A DNA stretch of 64,000 bases from Algiphilus aromaticivorans DG1253 (lineage in GTDB: Bacteria; Pseudomonadota; Gammaproteobacteria; Nevskiales; Nevskiaceae): NCBI RefSeq assembly GCF_000733765.1, contig NZ_JPOG01000001.1:1302001-1366000 (forward strand), written 5' to 3'. The position numbers and the translations under genes were made by a program. The notes under the pieces were generated by a model that searched no databases, was not told the origin of the DNA, and saw only the letters and a list, made by a program, of their open reading frames with translations. Positions 28,524 to 57,892 of this stretch are shown here, piece by piece. Position 1 is the stretch's first letter, and every line of letters starts with the position of its first letter.

Positions 28524-29696
28524 ATGTACCGTATTCAAACGCTGAACAATATCTCGCCCCGCGGCCTTGAGCATCTGCCGCGCGACCGCTACGAAGTCGC
28601 CAGCGAGATCAGCAACCCCGATGCCATCCTCGTGCGCTCCTACAAGATGCACGACATGGAGATTCCCGAAACCGTGCGCGCCATCGGCCGTGCCGGCGCG
28701 GGGACCAACAACATCCCGGTCGAGGCCATGAGCGAGCGCGGCGTGCCCGTGTTCAACGCGCCCGGCGCCAACGCCAACGCCGTCAAGGAACTGGTGGTCG
28801 CCGGCATGCTGATGGCGGCGCGCAATATTCCGCAGGCGCTGCGCTTCGTCGAGAGCATCGATGCCGACGACGCCAAGGCGGTCGAGGATGGCAAGAAGAA
28901 GTTTGCCGGCTACGAACTCCCTGATCGCAGCCTCGGCGTCATTGGTCTCGGTGCCATCGGCGTTCGTGTCGCCAACGCCGCTTACGATCTCGGCATGAAG
29001 GTCACGGGCTTCGACCCCAAGATGACGGTGGAGAACGCCTGGCTGCTGTCCTCCGGTGTTCAGCAGTCGGTCTCCGTCGATGAGCTCTGCGCCAATTCGC
29101 AGTTCCTTACCGTGCACGTGCCGCTGATCGAGGCGACGCAGAACCTGATCAACGCCGAGCGCATCAAGCTGATGCCCAAGGGCGCGGTGATTCTGAACTT
29201 CGCGCGCGGCGGCATCGTCGATGAGGATGCTGTTCTGGCTGCGCTGGACGAGGGGCATCTGCACGCCTACATCTGCGACTTCCCGTCGAGCAAGCTCAAG
29301 GCGCACGACAAGGTCGTCGCGCTCCCGCATCTCGGCGCTTCGACCGGGGAAGCCGAGGAGAACTGCGCGATCATGGTGGCGCGTCAGGTACGCGACTTCC
29401 TCGAGAACGGCAATGTCACAAATTCGGTGAACTTCCCCGAGTCCGTTCTGCCGCGCGTCGAGAACGAGCCGCGGTTGTGCATCGCCAATGCCAACGTGCC
29501 GAACATGGTCGGTCAGATCACCACGGCGCTGGCCAAGCACGACCTCAACATCGCCGACATGCTCAACAAGTCGCGCGGCAACGTCGCCTACACCATGGTG
29601 GATGTGGATTCCGACATCCCTGAGTCCGTGGCAGAGGAGCTGCGCGCCATCAAGGGCGTGCTCTCCGTGCGCCTGCTCGACGCCCCGGCTGCGTGA
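28524..29696 (+). CDS. serA: D-3-phosphoglycerate dehydrogenase, short ACT-containing form
   Basis: A 390-residue NAD-dependent 2-hydroxyacid dehydrogenase. Substrate-binding residues in VRSYKMHD and RAGAGTNNIPVEAM are followed by the Rossmann motif GVIGLGAIGVRVANAA (about 137-152), the catalytic Arg in NFARGGIVDEDAV and His in LPHLGASTGEAEEN. A C-terminal ACT domain (about 318-388) suggests serine feedback. Its N-terminus differs from E. coli SerA (409 residues), so this is a different subfamily; the serC neighbour supports a PGDH role over another hydroxyacid dehydrogenase. The stop overlaps pheA by one base. Confidence 0.9.
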   Translation: MYRIQTLNNISPRGLEHLPRDRYEVASEISNPDAILVRSYKMHDMEIPETVRAIGRAGAGTNNIPVEAMSERGVPVFNAPGANANAVKELVVAGMLMAARNIPQALRFVESIDADDAKAVEDGKKKFAGYELPDRSLGVIGLGAIGVRVANAAYDLGMKVTGFDPKMTVENAWLLSSGVQQSVSVDELCANSQFLTVHVPLIEATQNLINAERIKLMPKGAVILNFARGGIVDEDAVLAALDEGHLHAYICDFPSSKLKAHDKVVALPHLGASTGEAEENCAIMVARQVRDFLENGNVTNSVNFPESVLPRVENEPRLCIANANVPNMVGQITTALAKHDLNIADMLNKSRGNVAYTMVDVDSDIPESVAEELRAIKGVLSVRLLDAPAA

Positions 29697-30802
29697 TGAG
29701 CGGGGACCGCCTGAGCCAGGCGCGGTCGCGCATAGACGCCCTGGATGCCGAGATCCAGGAGCGCGTCGTAGAGCGCGCCCGCGTCGCGCAGGAGGTGCGC
29801 GACATCAAGCGCGAGGCCGGTGATCTCTCCGATCACTACCGCCCCGCGCGCGAGGCGCAGGTGCTCAAGGCCGCGGTCGAGCGCAACAAGGCGCTGGGCA
29901 GCCCGCTTTCCCAGGCGGCGATGACCAGCATCATGCGCGAGATCATGTCCGCCTGTCTGGCGCTGGAGAGCCCGCTGTCGGTGTCCTATCTGGGCCCCGA
30001 AGGCACCTATACGCAGTCGGCGGTCTACAAGCACTTCGGTCACCAGGTGTCCACACGTGTGGCGCCGGCCATCGACGACATCTTCCGCGATGTCGAATCC
30101 GGAACGGCGGCCTACGGCGTGGTGCCGGTGGAGAATTCGACGGAAGGCGTGGTCTCCAGCACGCTGGATCTGCTGCTGGCCACGCCGCTGTCGATCTGCG
30201 GCGAAGTTATGTTGCCCGTGCACCACCATCTGCTGTCGGGGCACGAGGACATGGCGCGCATTGACGTGGTCTATGCGCATCCGCAGTCCTTCGCGCAATG
30301 CCGGCGGTGGCTGGACAACAATCTGCCCAATACGCCGCGCGAGCCGATGGCCAGCAACGGCGCGGCGGCGCGGCGCGTTGCCGAGACCAAGCGCGGCGCG
30401 GCCATTGCCAGCGCGGCGGCCGGGGTGCTCTACGGTCTGAACGAGCTGGCCGCCAATATCGAGGACGACCCCAACAACACGACGCGCTTTCTGGTCATCG
30501 GCCGGCAGCAGCCGGAACCGACCGGCGCGGATCGCACGTCGCTTGTTTGCTCGGCGCCACAGGGCGGCGAGCCGGGAGCGCTGTTCTCGCTGCTGGAGCC
30601 CTTCGCCCAGGCGGGGGTCAACCTCAGCAAGATCGAGTCCCGGCCCAGCCGCAGGGCCGCCTGGGATTACAATTTCTACCTGGATCTCGACGGCCACCAG
30701 GCCGACCCGAAGGTGGGCGCGGTCATCGACGACGTGCGCAGCCGCTCCGCTTTCTTCAAGATCCTCGGTTCCTACCCACGGGCCAGCGATCAGAGCATTT
30801 GA
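29696..30802 (+). CDS. pheA: Bifunctional chorismate mutase / prephenate dehydratase
   Basis: A 368-residue P-protein. The N-terminal AroQ chorismate mutase (about 1-90: DRLSQARSRIDALDAEIQER) is fused to prephenate dehydratase (about 95-275, with VSYLGPEGTYTQSA and the NNTTRFLVIG motif) and a C-terminal ACT domain (SLLEPFAQAGVNLSKIESRP) for phenylalanine feedback. A GTG directly before also starts in frame, but the ATG at 29696, forming TGATG with the serA stop, is preferred. Tyrosine's dehydrogenase is separate (tyrA at 32097). Confidence 0.97.
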   Translation: MSGDRLSQARSRIDALDAEIQERVVERARVAQEVRDIKREAGDLSDHYRPAREAQVLKAAVERNKALGSPLSQAAMTSIMREIMSACLALESPLSVSYLGPEGTYTQSAVYKHFGHQVSTRVAPAIDDIFRDVESGTAAYGVVPVENSTEGVVSSTLDLLLATPLSICGEVMLPVHHHLLSGHEDMARIDVVYAHPQSFAQCRRWLDNNLPNTPREPMASNGAAARRVAETKRGAAIASAAAGVLYGLNELAANIEDDPNNTTRFLVIGRQQPEPTGADRTSLVCSAPQGGEPGALFSLLEPFAQAGVNLSKIESRPSRRAAWDYNFYLDLDGHQADPKVGAVIDDVRSRSAFFKILGSYPRASDQSI

Positions 30803-30809
30803 TTTGGTT

Positions 30810-30938
30810 GAGCTACGGATTGCACAGATATTCACAGAGTAGTGTCGGGGTTGCGCGAAGTATCTAGCCTCTGCGAAGAAGTGCCTCAGCGCTTAAGACT
30901 GATCTTCTAATCCCTTGAATCTGTGTAATCTGCGGCCC
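30810..30938. repeat. Imperfect palindromic intergenic element, copy A (pheA-hisC gap)
   Basis: The left arm 30810-30827 (GAGCTACGGATTGCACAG) and right arm 30921-30938 are inverted repeats agreeing at 13 of 18 positions. The left arm agrees at 16 of 18 positions with the left arm of copy B at 56955, and both right arms are followed within a few bases by TCTTGA. The middle, about 93 bases, differs in sequence and is GC-richer than that of copy B. It starts 7 bases after the pheA stop and ends 19 bases before the hisC ATG. No open frame of note is inside. Confidence 0.75.
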
Positions 30939-30957: not shown

Positions 30958-32100
30958 ATGGCTGAACCTGAATTTTTGCAGCGCGTACCGGAAGGCATTC
31001 GCGGCATGGCGCCGTACCAGCCGGGCATGCCCATCGACGAGCTGCAGCGACGGCTCGGGCTGTCCGATGTCATCAAGCTCGCCTCCAATGAGAATCCGCT
31101 GGGTTGCAGCCCGCAGGCGGCGGCGGTGCTGCGCGGCGAGCATCAGCTCGCGCGCTACCCGGATGGTGGCGGCTTCGCACTGAAGGCGAAGATCGCGGCT
31201 TTTCATGGTGTTGCGCCGGAGCAGGTGACGCTGGGCAACGGTTCGAACGATCTGCTGGAATTCGTTGCGCGCATCTTCCTCGGGCCAGGCAGGGCGGCGA
31301 TGTACTCGCGGCACGCCTTTGCGGTCTATCCGCTGGCGGCTGCTGCGCAGAACGCGCCCAGCGTGGTGGTGCCGGCGCGGCCGGTCGACGCCGAAGATGC
31401 CTATGGCCACGATCTGGTGGGCTTTGCGCGCGCGCTCAGCGACGAGGTCGCGGCGATCTTCATTGCCAATCCGAACAATCCCACTGGCACCTGCCTGCCG
31501 GGCGGCGCGGTGGCTGATTTCCTCGGCGAGGTGCCGGAGTCGACCATCGTCGTGCTCGACGAGGCCTATTGGGATTATCAGGATCCCTCTACACGGCCCG
31601 ATATCGACGCGCTGCTGGCGCGCCACCCGAATCTGCTGGTGACGCGCACCTTCTCGAAGATCTATGGTCTGGCCGCGCTGCGCTTGGGCTATGGCCTGTC
31701 GCATCCGGCTCTGGCCGATCTGCTCAATCGCGTGCGCCAGCCCTTCAACAACAACAGCCTCGCGCTGGCCGCCGGTGAGGCTGCGCTGGCCGATCAGGCC
31801 TTCGTTGCGGAATCGGTGGCGCTGAATGCCCGCGAGCGGGCGCGGCTGGAGCGCGAGCTAAGTGCACGCGGCCTGCAGGTGCTGCCGTCGCACGCCAATT
31901 TCGTGGCCGTCGGCTTCGGGCGTGATGCGGCGCCCATCCATCAGGGCCTTTTGGAAGCCGGCATTATCGTGCGTCCGATGGGCAGCTACGAGATGCCACA
32001 CTTCCTCCGCGTGTCGGTGGGCACCGAGACCGAGAACGACCGCTTCCTCGCCGCGCTCGACGGCATCATGGGCACAGCCCGGGACGCCGCCGCCGGATGA
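30958..32100 (+). CDS. hisC: Histidinol-phosphate aminotransferase
   Basis: A 380-residue class I/II PLP aminotransferase. The N-terminal substrate region LASNENPLG, the IANPNNPTGT motif, VLDEAYWDY and the PLP Lys234 in RTFSKIYGLAALRLGYG are diagnostic. In this gene neighbourhood the Pseudomonas-type HisC2 may also transaminate aromatic precursors. An in-frame TTG 15 bases upstream falls in the tail of the repeat element, so the ATG at 30958 is chosen. The tyrA start overlaps its stop by 4 bases. Confidence 0.93.
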   Translation: MAEPEFLQRVPEGIRGMAPYQPGMPIDELQRRLGLSDVIKLASNENPLGCSPQAAAVLRGEHQLARYPDGGGFALKAKIAAFHGVAPEQVTLGNGSNDLLEFVARIFLGPGRAAMYSRHAFAVYPLAAAAQNAPSVVVPARPVDAEDAYGHDLVGFARALSDEVAAIFIANPNNPTGTCLPGGAVADFLGEVPESTIVVLDEAYWDYQDPSTRPDIDALLARHPNLLVTRTFSKIYGLAALRLGYGLSHPALADLLNRVRQPFNNNSLALAAGEAALADQAFVAESVALNARERARLERELSARGLQVLPSHANFVAVGFGRDAAPIHQGLLEAGIIVRPMGSYEMPHFLRVSVGTETENDRFLAALDGIMGTARDAAAG

Positions 32101-50676: not shown

Positions 50677-53607
50677 ATGTCCGTCGTTAAGCGCATCTCG
50701 CTGCTCTGCGCGCTTCTTTGTGCCGCCGGCGCGGCACATGCCATCAGTCTGGGCGCGATCGAGCTCGAGTCGGCGCTGAACCAGCCGCTGCAGGCGACCG
50801 TTCCGCTACGCGGCGTCGCAAGCGACGAGCTGTCCGGTTTGCGCGTACGTTTGGCCCCGGCCGAGCGCTTCGAGGCCGCGGGCCTCATTCGCGACGACTA
50901 TCTGCGCAATCTGCGCTTGTCGGTGGAAGAGGGTCGGGACGGCCGCCCGGTCGTGCGCATTCGCGGCGAAGGTCCGCTGCGCGAGCCGATGCTTGATCTC
51001 CTTATCGAGCTGCGACAGGGGCGCCAGAACGTGCAGCGCGGCTACACGCTGCTAGTGGATCCGCCGGAGATGGCGCGCGAGCCCAGCGCTGCTGTTCCAG
51101 AGCCGGCGGAAACTCGGCCGGAACCAAAGTCGGAACCAGCACCCGAGCCAGAGCCGGAATTCGAAGGTGCACCCGAATCACGTCCGGCAGCAGAGCGCGT
51201 CGGGGCCGACGCCCAGGACGCCACCACACCCATGGCAAGCGAGGGCGATGGGCAGGAGGCTTCTCCGACGTCCACGGAAGACGGAAGCGCCGCCGAGCCC
51301 GAACAGTCCGCCAAGCAATCGCCACGCTTCTTCGAGGAGCGCGAGCCGGCGAGCGAGCGGCAGCTGGACCCCGAATTGCTGGCTGAAATCGAGGCCGGTC
51401 GAGATCGGCCGCAGCCGCGCGCAGCCCGCGCCTCGACGCAGGCGCTGCCCGCGCGCAGTGCCGAAGATGGCGTCTACGTAGTCCGTGCCGGCGAAACGCT
51501 TTGGCGAGTGGCCTACAACACGCGTGGCGCTAGCGGCGAAGTCACCATGGCGCAGCAGATGCTGGCTATCGTGATCGCCAACCCCGAAGCCTTTGATGAG
51601 GGAGACGCCACAGCGCTGTTGCGGGGCAGCCGCCTGCGCATCCCGCCACCAGACGCGGTACGTCGTATCGATGCCGCTGAGGCGGATAGGACGATGGCGG
51701 CACTGACGGCAGGAGACCGCCGAACCGACGCCGTCAATCCGGACTTGATGCGCACCGAGGACGGTCCGGAGTCGGACGCGGCGCAGACATCCACGACTAT
51801 GGATGACGCTGATGCTGCTGAGAGCCAGCCCGAAGCCGACGATGCGGATGACGGCGGCGGCAAAGGGACCGTGGTGACTGAGGATAGCGAAGCGCAAGCG
51901 GACGCCGCTCCTGATGCCGCCGCTTTGCTGGTGGATCGCGAGCTCACGCGAGCCCAGCAACGAGCAGCGGAGGCCGAAGCCTCGGAGCAAACCGAAGTCG
52001 AACCGGTTCCCGAACAGGCACAAAGCGATGACGCTGAGCCGAAGGCCGACACCGAGCAAGCCCCCGACACGTCTGGCGATGATGCGGCAGCTGTGGGTGA
52101 AGGCGGAGCGCAACCTGCCGAACCGCCGTCTCCCGCGCCAGCAGGCGAAAGCGAAGGTGGTTTCGACCTGCGACTGCTGGGCGCCGTTGCGGTGGTTGTC
52201 CTGCTGCTGGTCGCCCTGTTGGTCTGGCGCCGGCGGCGCGCGGAAGCCGAGGTCTTCGCCAACGACGACGAGGAGGCCAGCGATCTCGTGCCGGCCTCCT
52301 TCGAGACCAGTGACGATGTCGCGGCCGTCAATGGTGATGACGCGTCCGATCCGAGCGAAGCACCCAGCGATGGCGGTAGTACGGAGCCCCCGGAACCACG
52401 AGGCACAACCGGCGAGGGCGACGACCCCATGGCCGATGCCGACTTCCGCATTGCCTATGGCATGTTCGATGACGCGGAAGCGCGGTTGCAGGAGGCAATC
52501 CGGCGCGAGCCGGAGCGCGCCGATCTGCGGCTGAAGCTCGCCGAAGTGCACCATGCTTCCGAGCAGCGCGAAGCCTTTCTCGAGGCAGCGGATGCCGCCA
52601 GCGGTTGTGGGCTCGATGAGGAGCAACGTGGCGAGCTGGCGCGCATGGCGGATCGCATCGCGCCGGATTCGCGGCACGCCAGTGGGCTCGCGGCCGGAGC
52701 AGCCATAGGTGCGACGCTCAATGCCGAGAGCGAAGATCCCGCGACTGCCGAGCCCGCAGCGAGCGAACCCACCCCCGCCGAAGGGGTGCCGGGCGAGGTG
52801 ACAGCGCCGCCAGAACAAGGGCTGGATGTCGACCTTGCCGGGCTCGATACGGAGACCGGCGGAACTCTGGATGAGTCAGACAGTGCGGGCGAGGGCGGTC
52901 TGGATTTCGATCTCGACCAGCTCGACGACCTGCAGAGCGACGACGTCAAGGACTCCGTCGCACCGGCGCTGGACGAGGGCTCCGCGGATAATCTGCTTGA
53001 TTTCGATCTGGATGCCCTGGAAACCGGGGACTCCGACAGTCCGAAGGTGGCGGAGGAGCCGGCCACTCGCACCGATGATGAGAACAGCCTGGACTTCGAC
53101 CTTGACGCGCTTGATTTCGATGCCGACGACAGCGCTACCGCCGATTCAGGCGCCGCGAGTAGCTTCGATGAAGAGCGCGCGCTCGATCTGACGGAAAACG
53201 AAGTCGACGCCGGCGCCGAAGAGCCCGCTGCACAGCCTGCCGCAGAGCCAGAATCTGATGCCCCCGATCTGGATCTGGATGATTTCTCGCTGGCCGATTT
53301 CGATGTCTCCGGAGATGACGAGGGCGCTGAGTCCGAGCCTGCCGCCGAGCCGATGGCAGCCCCAGCCCAGGACCCTGCCGCGGGCGGCGGAGACGAGGAT
53401 TTCGCCATCGGCGGGCTGGATCTGGAGCCGGAAGGCGAGCCCGATGCGGACGACGCGGGCGCCATGGCCGGGCAGCTGGATATGGCCAGGGCCTACGTTG
53501 ATCTCGGTGATGTCGAGCTCGCGCGGCCGATGCTGCAGGAAGTCGCCGAGCGCGGCGACGCCGAGCAGCAGCGCGAGGCCGCCGAGCTGCTCGACAAGCT
53601 GGGCTAG
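50677..53607 (+). CDS. fimV: FimV-like polar pilus-assembly/twitching protein
   Basis: A 976-residue bitopic protein. A signal peptide (1-22, ending AAHA) precedes a FimV N-terminal domain (about 23-125), a Pro/Glu-rich linker, a LysM peptidoglycan-binding motif (about 267-320: VYVVRAGETLWRVAYNTRG) and one transmembrane helix (about 508-526) followed by RRRRAE. The cytoplasmic part is very acidic with repeated LDFDLDxLD units near 740-830 and 860, and ends in a TPR-like FimV C-terminal domain (MARAYVDLGDVELARPMLQE). FimV organises the cell pole and type IV pili. The 111-base gap from asd shows only weak promoter-like matches. Confidence 0.92.
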   Translation: MSVVKRISLLCALLCAAGAAHAISLGAIELESALNQPLQATVPLRGVASDELSGLRVRLAPAERFEAAGLIRDDYLRNLRLSVEEGRDGRPVVRIRGEGPLREPMLDLLIELRQGRQNVQRGYTLLVDPPEMAREPSAAVPEPAETRPEPKSEPAPEPEPEFEGAPESRPAAERVGADAQDATTPMASEGDGQEASPTSTEDGSAAEPEQSAKQSPRFFEEREPASERQLDPELLAEIEAGRDRPQPRAARASTQALPARSAEDGVYVVRAGETLWRVAYNTRGASGEVTMAQQMLAIVIANPEAFDEGDATALLRGSRLRIPPPDAVRRIDAAEADRTMAALTAGDRRTDAVNPDLMRTEDGPESDAAQTSTTMDDADAAESQPEADDADDGGGKGTVVTEDSEAQADAAPDAAALLVDRELTRAQQRAAEAEASEQTEVEPVPEQAQSDDAEPKADTEQAPDTSGDDAAAVGEGGAQPAEPPSPAPAGESEGGFDLRLLGAVAVVVLLLVALLVWRRRRAEAEVFANDDEEASDLVPASFETSDDVAAVNGDDASDPSEAPSDGGSTEPPEPRGTTGEGDDPMADADFRIAYGMFDDAEARLQEAIRREPERADLRLKLAEVHHASEQREAFLEAADAASGCGLDEEQRGELARMADRIAPDSRHASGLAAGAAIGATLNAESEDPATAEPAASEPTPAEGVPGEVTAPPEQGLDVDLAGLDTETGGTLDESDSAGEGGLDFDLDQLDDLQSDDVKDSVAPALDEGSADNLLDFDLDALETGDSDSPKVAEEPATRTDDENSLDFDLDALDFDADDSATADSGAASSFDEERALDLTENEVDAGAEEPAAQPAAEPESDAPDLDLDDFSLADFDVSGDDEGAESEPAAEPMAAPAQDPAAGGGDEDFAIGGLDLEPEGEPDADDAGAMAGQLDMARAYVDLGDVELARPMLQEVAERGDAEQQREAAELLDKLG

Positions 53608-55716: not shown

Positions 55717-55742
<26 letters not shown>
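55095..55742 (+). CDS. trpF: Phosphoribosylanthranilate isomerase
   Basis: A 215-residue TIM-barrel enzyme, third step of tryptophan synthesis, here not fused to TrpC. The general base Cys10 is in [12 protein letters not shown], and LQFHGAED and the phosphate-binding [10 protein letters not shown] loops are intact. It overlaps trpB by 26 bases. trpD, trpC and trpE are not in the window. Confidence 0.96.
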
Positions 55743-56931
<1,189 letters not shown>

Positions 56932-56954
56932 GCGGAGCGTCTTAGAGAGGAAGG

Positions 56955-57057
56955 GAGCCACAGATTGCACAGATTCACACAAAGTCCAAAAAAACAATAA
57001 ATTATGTCTGTTTTTTAACCAATACATTGGGTCGCAACTCTGTGAAATCTGTGGCTC
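56955..57057. repeat. Palindromic intergenic element, copy B (trpB-trpA gap)
   Basis: GAGCCACAGATTGCACAG (56955-56972) and its inverted partner (57040-57057) agree at 17 of 18 positions. Inside lies a second inverted pair, AAAAAACA 56989-56996 with TGTTTTTT 57009-57016. The 103-base unit is AT-rich in the middle, unlike the surrounding high-GC genome. It starts 23 bases after the trpB stop and ends 25 bases before the trpA ATG. Copy A at 30810 shares both arms. As RNA it could fold into one long hairpin. Confidence 0.8.
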
Positions 57058-57082
57058 TTGATGAAACCCAAAAGGAACTTGA

Positions 57083-57892
57083 ATGAGCCGAATTGCCGAC
57101 ACCTTCTCGCGGCTGCGCACCGAGGGCCGGCGCGCGCTGGTGCCCTATATCACCGCGGGTGACCCGCATCCGGATCACAGCGTCAGCTACATGCACGCGC
57201 TGGTGCGCGGCGGTGCGGATGTGCTGGAGCTGGGCGTGCCCTTTTCCGACCCGATGGCGGATGGCCCCATCATCCAGCTTGCCTGTGAGCGGGCTCTGAA
57301 GCACGGCACCTCCTTGCGGGACGTGCTGGGGATGGTGGCGCGCTTTCGTGCCGACGATGACGCGACCCCCGTTGTGTTGATGGGCTATCTGAATCCCATT
57401 GAGCGTTTCGGCTTCGAGGACTTCGCGCAGGCCGCACGCACCGCCGGTGTCGACGGCGTGCTCATCGTCGATCTGTCCGTGGACGAGGCGCCCGATGTCG
57501 CGCCGCAACTGCGCGCGCAGGGGCTGGACTGCATCTTCCTGCTGGCGCCGACCAGCACCGGCGCGCGCATGAAGGCCATCGCCTCGCTGGGCTCGGGTTA
57601 CGTCTATTACGTCTCGCTCAAGGGTGTCACCGGTGCGGCCAGCCTGGACCCGGCGGATGTTGCGACCCACGTTGCCGAGATTCGCGAGAATCTGGAGCTC
57701 CCGGTGGCGGTAGGCTTTGGTGTGCGCGACGCTGCCGGCGCCCGCGCTGTCGGGCAGCACGCCGACGGTGTCGTCGTCGGCAGCGCGCTGGTGCAGCGCA
57801 TCGCCGAGTTGGCCGAGACGCCCGATGCCGTGCCAGCGGTCCTCGAGCAAGCGGCGCGCGAATTGCGCGACGCCCTCGATGCGCTAGCATGA
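57083..57892 (+). CDS. trpA: Tryptophan synthase alpha chain
   Basis: A 269-residue TIM-barrel enzyme (E. coli 268) releasing indole from indole-3-glycerol phosphate. Catalytic Glu49 ([11 protein letters not shown]) and Asp60 ([10 protein letters not shown]) sit at the same positions as in E. coli. AAAAGGAACTTGA gives a strong ribosome binding site just after the palindromic element, so it can be translated independently of trpB. A 45-base gap with a small TGCCGA/TCGGCA hairpin (57897-57911) precedes accD. Confidence 0.98.

Follow-up and report, generated by a model that had tools for sequence, protein, structure and literature searches.

The described systems closest to the repeat analyzed here are the REPtrons (REP palindromes together with TnpA-REP, or RAYT, enzymes; PMC8266576, PMC3733652), the MITE of Thiomargarita hupL (PMC4853749), and the Correia elements and other bacterial MITEs (PMC10969869). 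According to the accessible parts of these papers, REPtron enzyme groups are said to have co-evolved with their palindromes (PMC8266576); the Thiomargarita MITE has been linked to PD-(D/E)XK_2 YhgA-type genes, the link resting on MITE homologs in PD-(D/E)XK_2 genes (PMC4853749); and RNase III cuts the message at the ends of Correia elements (PMC10969869). The word "endonuclease" does not occur in the accessible main text of the bacterial MITE review (PMC10969869).

The element considered here, copy B (56955-57057), separates trpB from trpA in the window (the whole analyzed stretch of 64,000 nucleotides; Table 1). Its near-perfect inverted arms, claimed in an earlier note made from the sequence alone, were recovered by the inverted-repeat search as arms of 19 nt, complementary in 18 of 19 positions (95%), with a 65 nt spacer. 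In agreement with the same note, the whole 103 bases are predicted to fold as one hairpin that includes the inner A/T pairing: the RNA fold has -33.3 kcal/mol, compared with -15.9 (sd 2.8) for dinucleotide shuffles (z -6.2; none of 200 shuffles is as good), and the z-score for the DNA fold is also -6.2. The G+C content of copy B is 0.379, that of the window 0.666, and the core, still lower (Table 1), is indeed as strikingly AT-rich as had been noted, being the most AT-rich 65 bases of the window: among its 63,935 65-base segments, 29 are as AT-rich, all of them at copy B. The gene ends given by the TIGR00263 and TIGR00262 matches (trpB stop at 56931, trpA start at 57083) confirm the reported gap of 151 bases, and a ribosome-binding-like AAAGGA, seen by eye 5' of trpA, agrees with the claim that trpA has its own ribosome binding site.

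Table 1. Coordinates of copy B, copy A and their neighboring genes in the window
Feature	Coordinates	Strand	Remarks
Left arm, copy B	56955..56973	+	GAGCC tip and CACAGATTN units; inverted-repeat search; unit match 56959-56975, 0 mismatches
AT-rich core, copy B	56974..57038	n/a	G+C 0.308; inner A/T pairing
Right arm, copy B	57039..57057	-	CACAGATTN units inverted; inverted-repeat search; 1 mismatch at 57037-57053
trpB, upstream neighbor of copy B	55717..56931	+	TIGR00263
trpA, downstream neighbor of copy B	57083..57892	+	TIGR00262; AAAGGA precedes
Copy A	30810..30938 (129 bases)	n/a	Second, more decayed family member; weaker arms; just past stop of frame 29693-30802
hisC, downstream neighbor of copy A	30958..32100	+	Follows copy A

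It is reasonably probable, in our view, that copy B belongs as a gene-less, MITE-like relative to a palindromic intergenic family, the full form of which is a GxxExxY gene within inverted arms of 8-10-base tandem units, here CACAGATTN. Copy B has such arms, but only the 65-base core and no GxxExxY gene between them, and is therefore classed as a gene-less relative rather than a full member. The repeat family of copy B also has the features of MITEs, that is, terminal inverted repeats, small size, no gene and many copies.

The arm pattern has 80 matches in the genome with up to three mismatches (two for the reversed-pattern control), and 48 matches at 33 places with up to two mismatches. The window contains six matches with up to three mismatches, compared with 0.16 expected; one of these, at 50899, is a solitary match within an open frame and does not represent a copy. 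Copy A is present before hisC, its arms being weaker (Table 1). The arms consist of tandem units, the number of which varies between copies, and the cores also differ, several of them having an inner GCGCTGAC...GTCAGCGC hairpin and others a longer dispersed repeat. In four cases (L103, L097, L071 and L105; G000:C1 2698496-2699105, 2498000-2498567, 128540-129257 and 2886611-2887028, respectively) the arm pairs enclose a second dispersed repeat of about 400-700 bases, with GCGATGTCGCGAAGCGACGAGCC near its end and no clear gene; one of these pairs has perfect arms of 34 bases. By eye, the palindrome at L104 (G000:C1:2780433-2780539) appears nested in another, older inverted repeat (GCGCTTT... / ...AAAAGCGC), much as if it had landed in a terminator-like hairpin.

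The arm tips of 25 two-armed copies examined by eye are mostly AGCC or AACC, and none is GTAG. Agreement between the two arms of a copy, tested in all 41 candidate pairs, has p 0.05 overall; the three tip bases give 0.012 and the A/G positions 0.06. In the 25 pairs with up to four mismatches, left after 16 of the 41 had been dropped as doubtful, there is agreement at the base preceding CC in 23 of 25, as against a shuffled mean of 12.1, and at 75 of 100 A/G positions, as against 62.2, whereas the base between units shows no such agreement (5 of 25; shuffled 6.1). Since two sub-families (AGCCAC and AACCGC) would explain this agreement as well as a structural constraint would, we do not count it as proof of a working stem. 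The earlier note had proposed a search for target-site duplications; inspection by eye found none at copy B or in the listed copies of the genome, and no fixed target was found, which counts against our reading.

GxxExxY genes are often located among such repeats. The only PF13366 (GxxExxY) match in this genome, at C1:1531143-1531579, scores 138 bits with TIGR04256 (cut-off 35) and 130 bits with Pfam PDDEXK_3 (cut-off 22). It sits between sufB and sufC, enclosed by CACAGATTN-type arms (GAACCACAGATTTCACAGATT and GAACCGCAGATTTCGCAGATT at its two ends), and its frame extends into the left arm. Of the two main arm types, denoted A and B, the genome has 57 A-type and no B-type matches, and the arms of the nuclease gene are A-type as well.

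GxxExxY (TIGR04256/PF13366) is a PD-(D/E)XK nuclease domain of about 120 residues. Residues E90, K92 and Q104 (numbering of the protein from this genome) are invariant and D80 is nearly so among 12 proteins; in a 65-row alignment K77 is invariant, and D65, E75 and Q89 are conserved in at least 90% of the rows. The dN/dS ratio is 0.035-0.19 in 10 of 13 GxxExxY pairs, the other three being saturated, and the gene is under purifying selection with its catalytic residues kept. The protein of Solimonas marina, 71% identical to the one studied here, has a confident structure model (pLDDT 96.4), for which four chains of SSO0001, a Cas4 protein, are the only solved matches with E < 0.001 (best 1.1e-4); lambda exonuclease is the next, weaker match (3.5e-3). 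A profile search against sequences of solved structures gave three non-significant matches (E about 0.3), including two endonuclease I chains. From the active-site residues and the predicted fold, GxxExxY can be assigned as a small PD-(D/E)XK nuclease.

In the order, GxxExxY genes were found in 28 of 85 genomes, with 40 matches in total at 38 distinct loci (the other two being second pieces of broken genes). A flanking inverted repeat with a score of at least 15 is present at 31 of these 38 loci, nearly all consisting of 8-10-base units; the seven other loci are that of this genome and L126 (arms broken by mismatches), L135 and L136 (left arm decayed), L140 (fragment), and L141 and L150 (contig end). 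The arm types include CRCRGATTN, CGCAAAGG, CGCAAATGAA and others, with a period of 8, 9 or 10 bases, while L132 has an arm of another kind. The same unit is inverted on both sides in 23 of 40 rows.

The association extends to public genomes, where the best 80 of at least 567 GxxExxY relatives were analyzed. Inverted repeats with a score of at least 15 are seen at 35 of these 80 loci and in none of 255 random control windows (drawn for the public loci only), a few of the 35, such as L192 and L219, not being of the tandem-unit kind; at least three of the 80 loci (L153, L161, L232) carry the same protein as loci of the order (L130, L145 and L138). The search is ungapped and misses some repeats (L175, which is the same place as L142, scored 8 here and 16 in the survey of the order), and the 45 other public loci are those lacking a strong ungapped inverted repeat, which counts against our reading. 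In the unit search, the same unit is inverted on both sides at 32 of the 80 public loci and in none of 172 controls; units are present at the left in 46 and at the right in 47, and wrong-orientation units are seen in 14 of 125 at the left and 11 of 125 at the right. Two GxxExxY genes on a contig of Marinilabilia salmonicolor (L192 and L196), about 6 kb apart, are close neighbors in the tree and have different flanking inverted repeats. Carriage by phages or plasmids was rejected: only five relatives in IMG/VR and eight plasmid records were found, and thus the family is mainly chromosomal.

The nuclease-domain tree comprises 114 rows, viral rows left out, of which 94 have an arm label (three set by hand; a label was taken from a single side if the other lacked one), and many rows lacking a label are from Bacteroidota. 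Arm class, with three states in 94 rows, requires 10 changes, compared with a mean of 33.5 and a minimum of 27 in 100 label shuffles, in a tree having few columns and many open forks, and in which near-copies cluster by themselves. Outside the order (60 rows), eight changes are required (mean 14.2, minimum 12 in shuffles). Host phylum requires 33 changes (90 rows with known phylum), but its 18 states need at least 17, and hence the label shuffles are the fairer test. Arm type follows the nuclease lineage across phyla.

Within the order, dozens to more than 200 arm matches are found per genome. Genomes with at least eight matches of either main arm type, considered high, make up 24 of the 28 with a GxxExxY gene and 14 of the 57 lacking one (Fisher p about 1e-7), although these 14 count against our reading. 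None of 20,000 permutations within eight informative genera is as extreme on raw counts, and subtracting six matches per gene copy gives p 0.001. In single-type genomes (not counting six genomes that combine both types, two of other types and one with a fragment; gene arm types assigned by eye), the dispersed main type coincides with the gene arm type in 7 of 7 A-type and 12 of 12 B-type genomes, that is, in 19 of 19, including G079 and G081 with a decayed left arm, G021 with a gene fragment and G016, whose gene has a stop; counts in G027, G079, G021, G030 and G038 are so small that they may consist largely of matches in the arms of the gene itself. Of the six genomes whose genes carry both arm types, four (G076, G080, G083, G029) have 32-89 A matches and only 1-6 B matches, the B pattern having been searched exactly so that variants are missed; a B-armed gene with hardly any dispersed B hairpins counts against our reading. 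Moreover, G069 (one contig, 99% complete) has 81 CGCAAAK-type (B) and 29 CACAGATT-type (A) matches, no PF13366 match and 11 Y1_Tnp matches, its three genus mates examined having at most seven arm matches, and G022, G057 and G084 have 31-76 matches of one arm type and no GxxExxY gene. For G069, either another mover or loss of the gene is possible.

Comparison of related species shows that the hairpins change. G015 and G004 are 95% identical at trp, and both have arms and lack the GxxExxY gene. Ten joined flanks were searched and 15 palindromes of G015 compared, of which seven had no usable counterpart and eight were aligned (L271 on the right side only). The core of L268 is inverted in place (core, 7.5 direct and 33 inverted; whole palindrome, 44 and 73), L284 shows a weaker sign of a flip (20.5 direct, 38.5 inverted), and the other six usable or partly usable palindromes show none; the number of arm units also changes between the two genomes. 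In the G047 group, where identity around the gene is 85-90%, 12 pairs of flanks were searched and four sites aligned, all concerning B-type hairpins, while the family of the window is A-type. Of the four species, G047 alone has L343, which G049, G050 and G046 lack. L337 occurs in G047 but not in G049, L328 is shared by G047 and G050 and missing from G049, and L327 is found in all four. Presence in one species of four suggests a gain in the case of L343, although gain and loss are not separable site by site in this group. No target-site duplication was found by eye at these junctions, which have diverged too far for base-by-base reading. The sufB-sufC junction is gene-bearing in this genome, in G011 and in Solimonas marina (G011 and S. 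marina carry the same protein), and has a gene-less palindrome of the other arm type in G015 and G004. SufC was named by family search in this genome only; elsewhere, and at the carA-carB, split metH and gcvP sites, genes were recognized by eye. That the two forms at sufB-sufC belong to different genomes and have different arm types counts against our reading.

The trp junction itself is variable. TrpA was found in 39 of 41 genomes; 30 loci, that of this genome included, were examined, five of them stopping short of trpB, and spacing was measured in the remaining 24, all from relatives. Twelve of these have a gap of -4 and eight one of 15-55; two have 105 and 109, and two have 536 and 629, the gap of the last two being filled by an extra open frame. 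By eye, the frame between trpB and trpA at L046 (G005) and L047 (G016) resembles a RibD or dihydrofolate reductase-like protein. In the only same-genus genome examined (L065, G001:C156, 3264-6255), trpB and trpA lie about 3 kb apart, with DUF1800 and DUF1501 genes between them on the opposite strand. The premise that the two genes normally overlap thus holds for 12 of the 24 measured relatives, but not for the other 12 (gaps 15-629). Since spacing differs so widely, a gap is not special to this genome, and the notion of broken coupling is weak. The trpB-trpA gap is labile, and CACAGATTN-type arms at trpA are seen, by a strict search among the 30 loci, only in this genome. As for the suggested recent arrival, membership in a dispersed family and the presence or absence of hairpins (of the other main arm type) between related species bear out that copy B is an inserted copy of a hairpin-forming repeat, but this support does not extend to a recent arrival of copy B itself, the sole same-genus genome carrying about 3 kb of other genes at this place.

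GxxExxY genes and arms are associated, their arm types match, and hairpins are present in some related species and absent from others. A mechanism that would connect these facts is that the nuclease recognizes the arms in a folded state, either as DNA (hairpin or cruciform) or as RNA; its cuts, followed by host repair, would spread, copy and flip the hairpins, and gene-less copies would be moved in trans. A core flip would be the expected product of cutting or template switching at an extruded cruciform. On the other hand, replication slippage at inverted repeats could flip the core with no nuclease involved, and the flip is seen in a genome pair that now lacks the GxxExxY gene. Alternatively, the gene could be a passenger, or could employ the arms solely to control itself. 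In the trp operon, the message presumably contains the element as a stable hairpin that follows the trpB stop, and trpA would depend on a ribosome-binding site of its own; by analogy with Correia elements (PMC10969869), a cut by RNase III in this hairpin would be a possible and the likeliest local effect.

Among the alternatives, one that we regard as unlikely is that the arms together with the nuclease make up a resident unit, regulatory or toxin-like, in which the nuclease acts on its own transcript at the arms, with gene-less hairpins being decay products or processing sites spread otherwise. The position of the gene at an operon junction with a frame running into the left arm, the purifying selection, and the sufB-sufC junction, gene-bearing in some genomes and with a gene-less palindrome in others, are all consistent with it. 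However, the numbers of arm matches per genome and the presence or absence of hairpins between related species require spreading, not only decay in place. Another alternative is that the hairpins are MITEs of an ordinary DDE insertion sequence and GxxExxY a chance or captured passenger, as could be suggested by the inverted ends, the small and varied cores, the presence or absence between related species, and the arms found in some genomes that lack the nuclease gene. We consider this improbable, since no target-site duplication is seen in the copy list, the arms, instead of being fixed terminal repeats, consist of a variable number of tandem units, and passenger status hardly explains why arm type tracks the nuclease lineage across phyla.

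Mobilization of REP/BIME palindromes by a Y1 HUH transposase (TnpA-REP, RAYT) has a similar outline, dispersed intergenic palindromes with an enzyme gene accompanied by cognate palindromes, as far as the accessible part of the source describes it (PMC8266576). Yet the genome studied here has no PF01797 (Y1_Tnp) match, which largely refutes RAYT in this case, Y1_Tnp occurs in 63 of the order's 85 genomes, whether or not these have arms, and the tips of the 25 copies examined by eye, mostly AGCC or AACC, differ from the GTAG or CGTC foot tag; this origin is thus very improbable. An intrinsic terminator or attenuator specific to the trp operon, which a strong hairpin between two genes of one operon might suggest, has scarcely any likelihood either: no terminator site (G+C-rich stem and T run) was found in 56880-57120, Rfam gave no matches within the window, and these arms recur at 33 places across the genome, which refutes it as the origin, although a secondary effect on the trpA level is conceivable.

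Returning to the GxxExxY-palindrome family, a broader proposal, which we put forward tentatively and hold somewhat short of probable, is that GxxExxY proteins are the mobility enzymes of phylum-spanning minimal elements, which would consist of a PD-(D/E)XK nuclease and inverted 8-10-base tandem arms read by it as a folded structure, enter operon junctions with no target-site duplication, transposase or recombinase, and mobilize gene-less hairpins in trans. The pairing, recurrent in many phyla, may represent an undescribed kind of genomic parasite. If true, such a class of mobile elements would lack any known counterpart, and a function would be provided for a protein family that is large and so far unassigned; tying GxxExxY to matched palindromes makes its role directly testable and would explain dispersed hairpins in many genomes. 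The copies inside core operons such as suf and trp are natural insertions of a stable hairpin. In the accessible part of the literature searched, which covers few subscription journals and preprints, there is no described function for GxxExxY, a word that occurs once in each of two papers, and no mention of TIGR04256 or PDDEXK_3; the five exact arm sequences searched there are not mentioned, and among the papers listed for intergenic inverted repeats and MITEs none contains PDDEXK. We claim no priority, as most subscription-journal papers and preprints lie outside this literature.

Compared with known systems, the predicted GxxExxY protein has its nearest folds in the Cas4/lambda-exonuclease branch of PD-(D/E)XK, from which it differs in having only about 120 residues. 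Correia elements and other bacterial MITEs, judging by the accessible text, are likewise mostly intergenic inverted-repeat elements but, unlike the palindromes described here, are regarded as derivatives of insertion sequences (PMC10969869). The REPtrons, as presented in the accessible parts of the sources, share high-copy palindromes and a cognate enzyme gene (PMC8266576, PMC3733652), while here the enzyme is a PD-(D/E)XK nuclease instead of an HUH one, the arms consist of tandem 8-10-base units, and the genome has no Y1 transposase match. The nearest printed idea found, as given in the accessible part of the paper, is the suggestion that the Thiomargarita hupL MITE derives from a PD-(D/E)XK gene and not from a DDE transposase (PMC4853749); that element belongs with a different family (PFAM12784), has a 19-bp inverted repeat and 10-bp direct repeats, and is described from one organism (PMC4853749).
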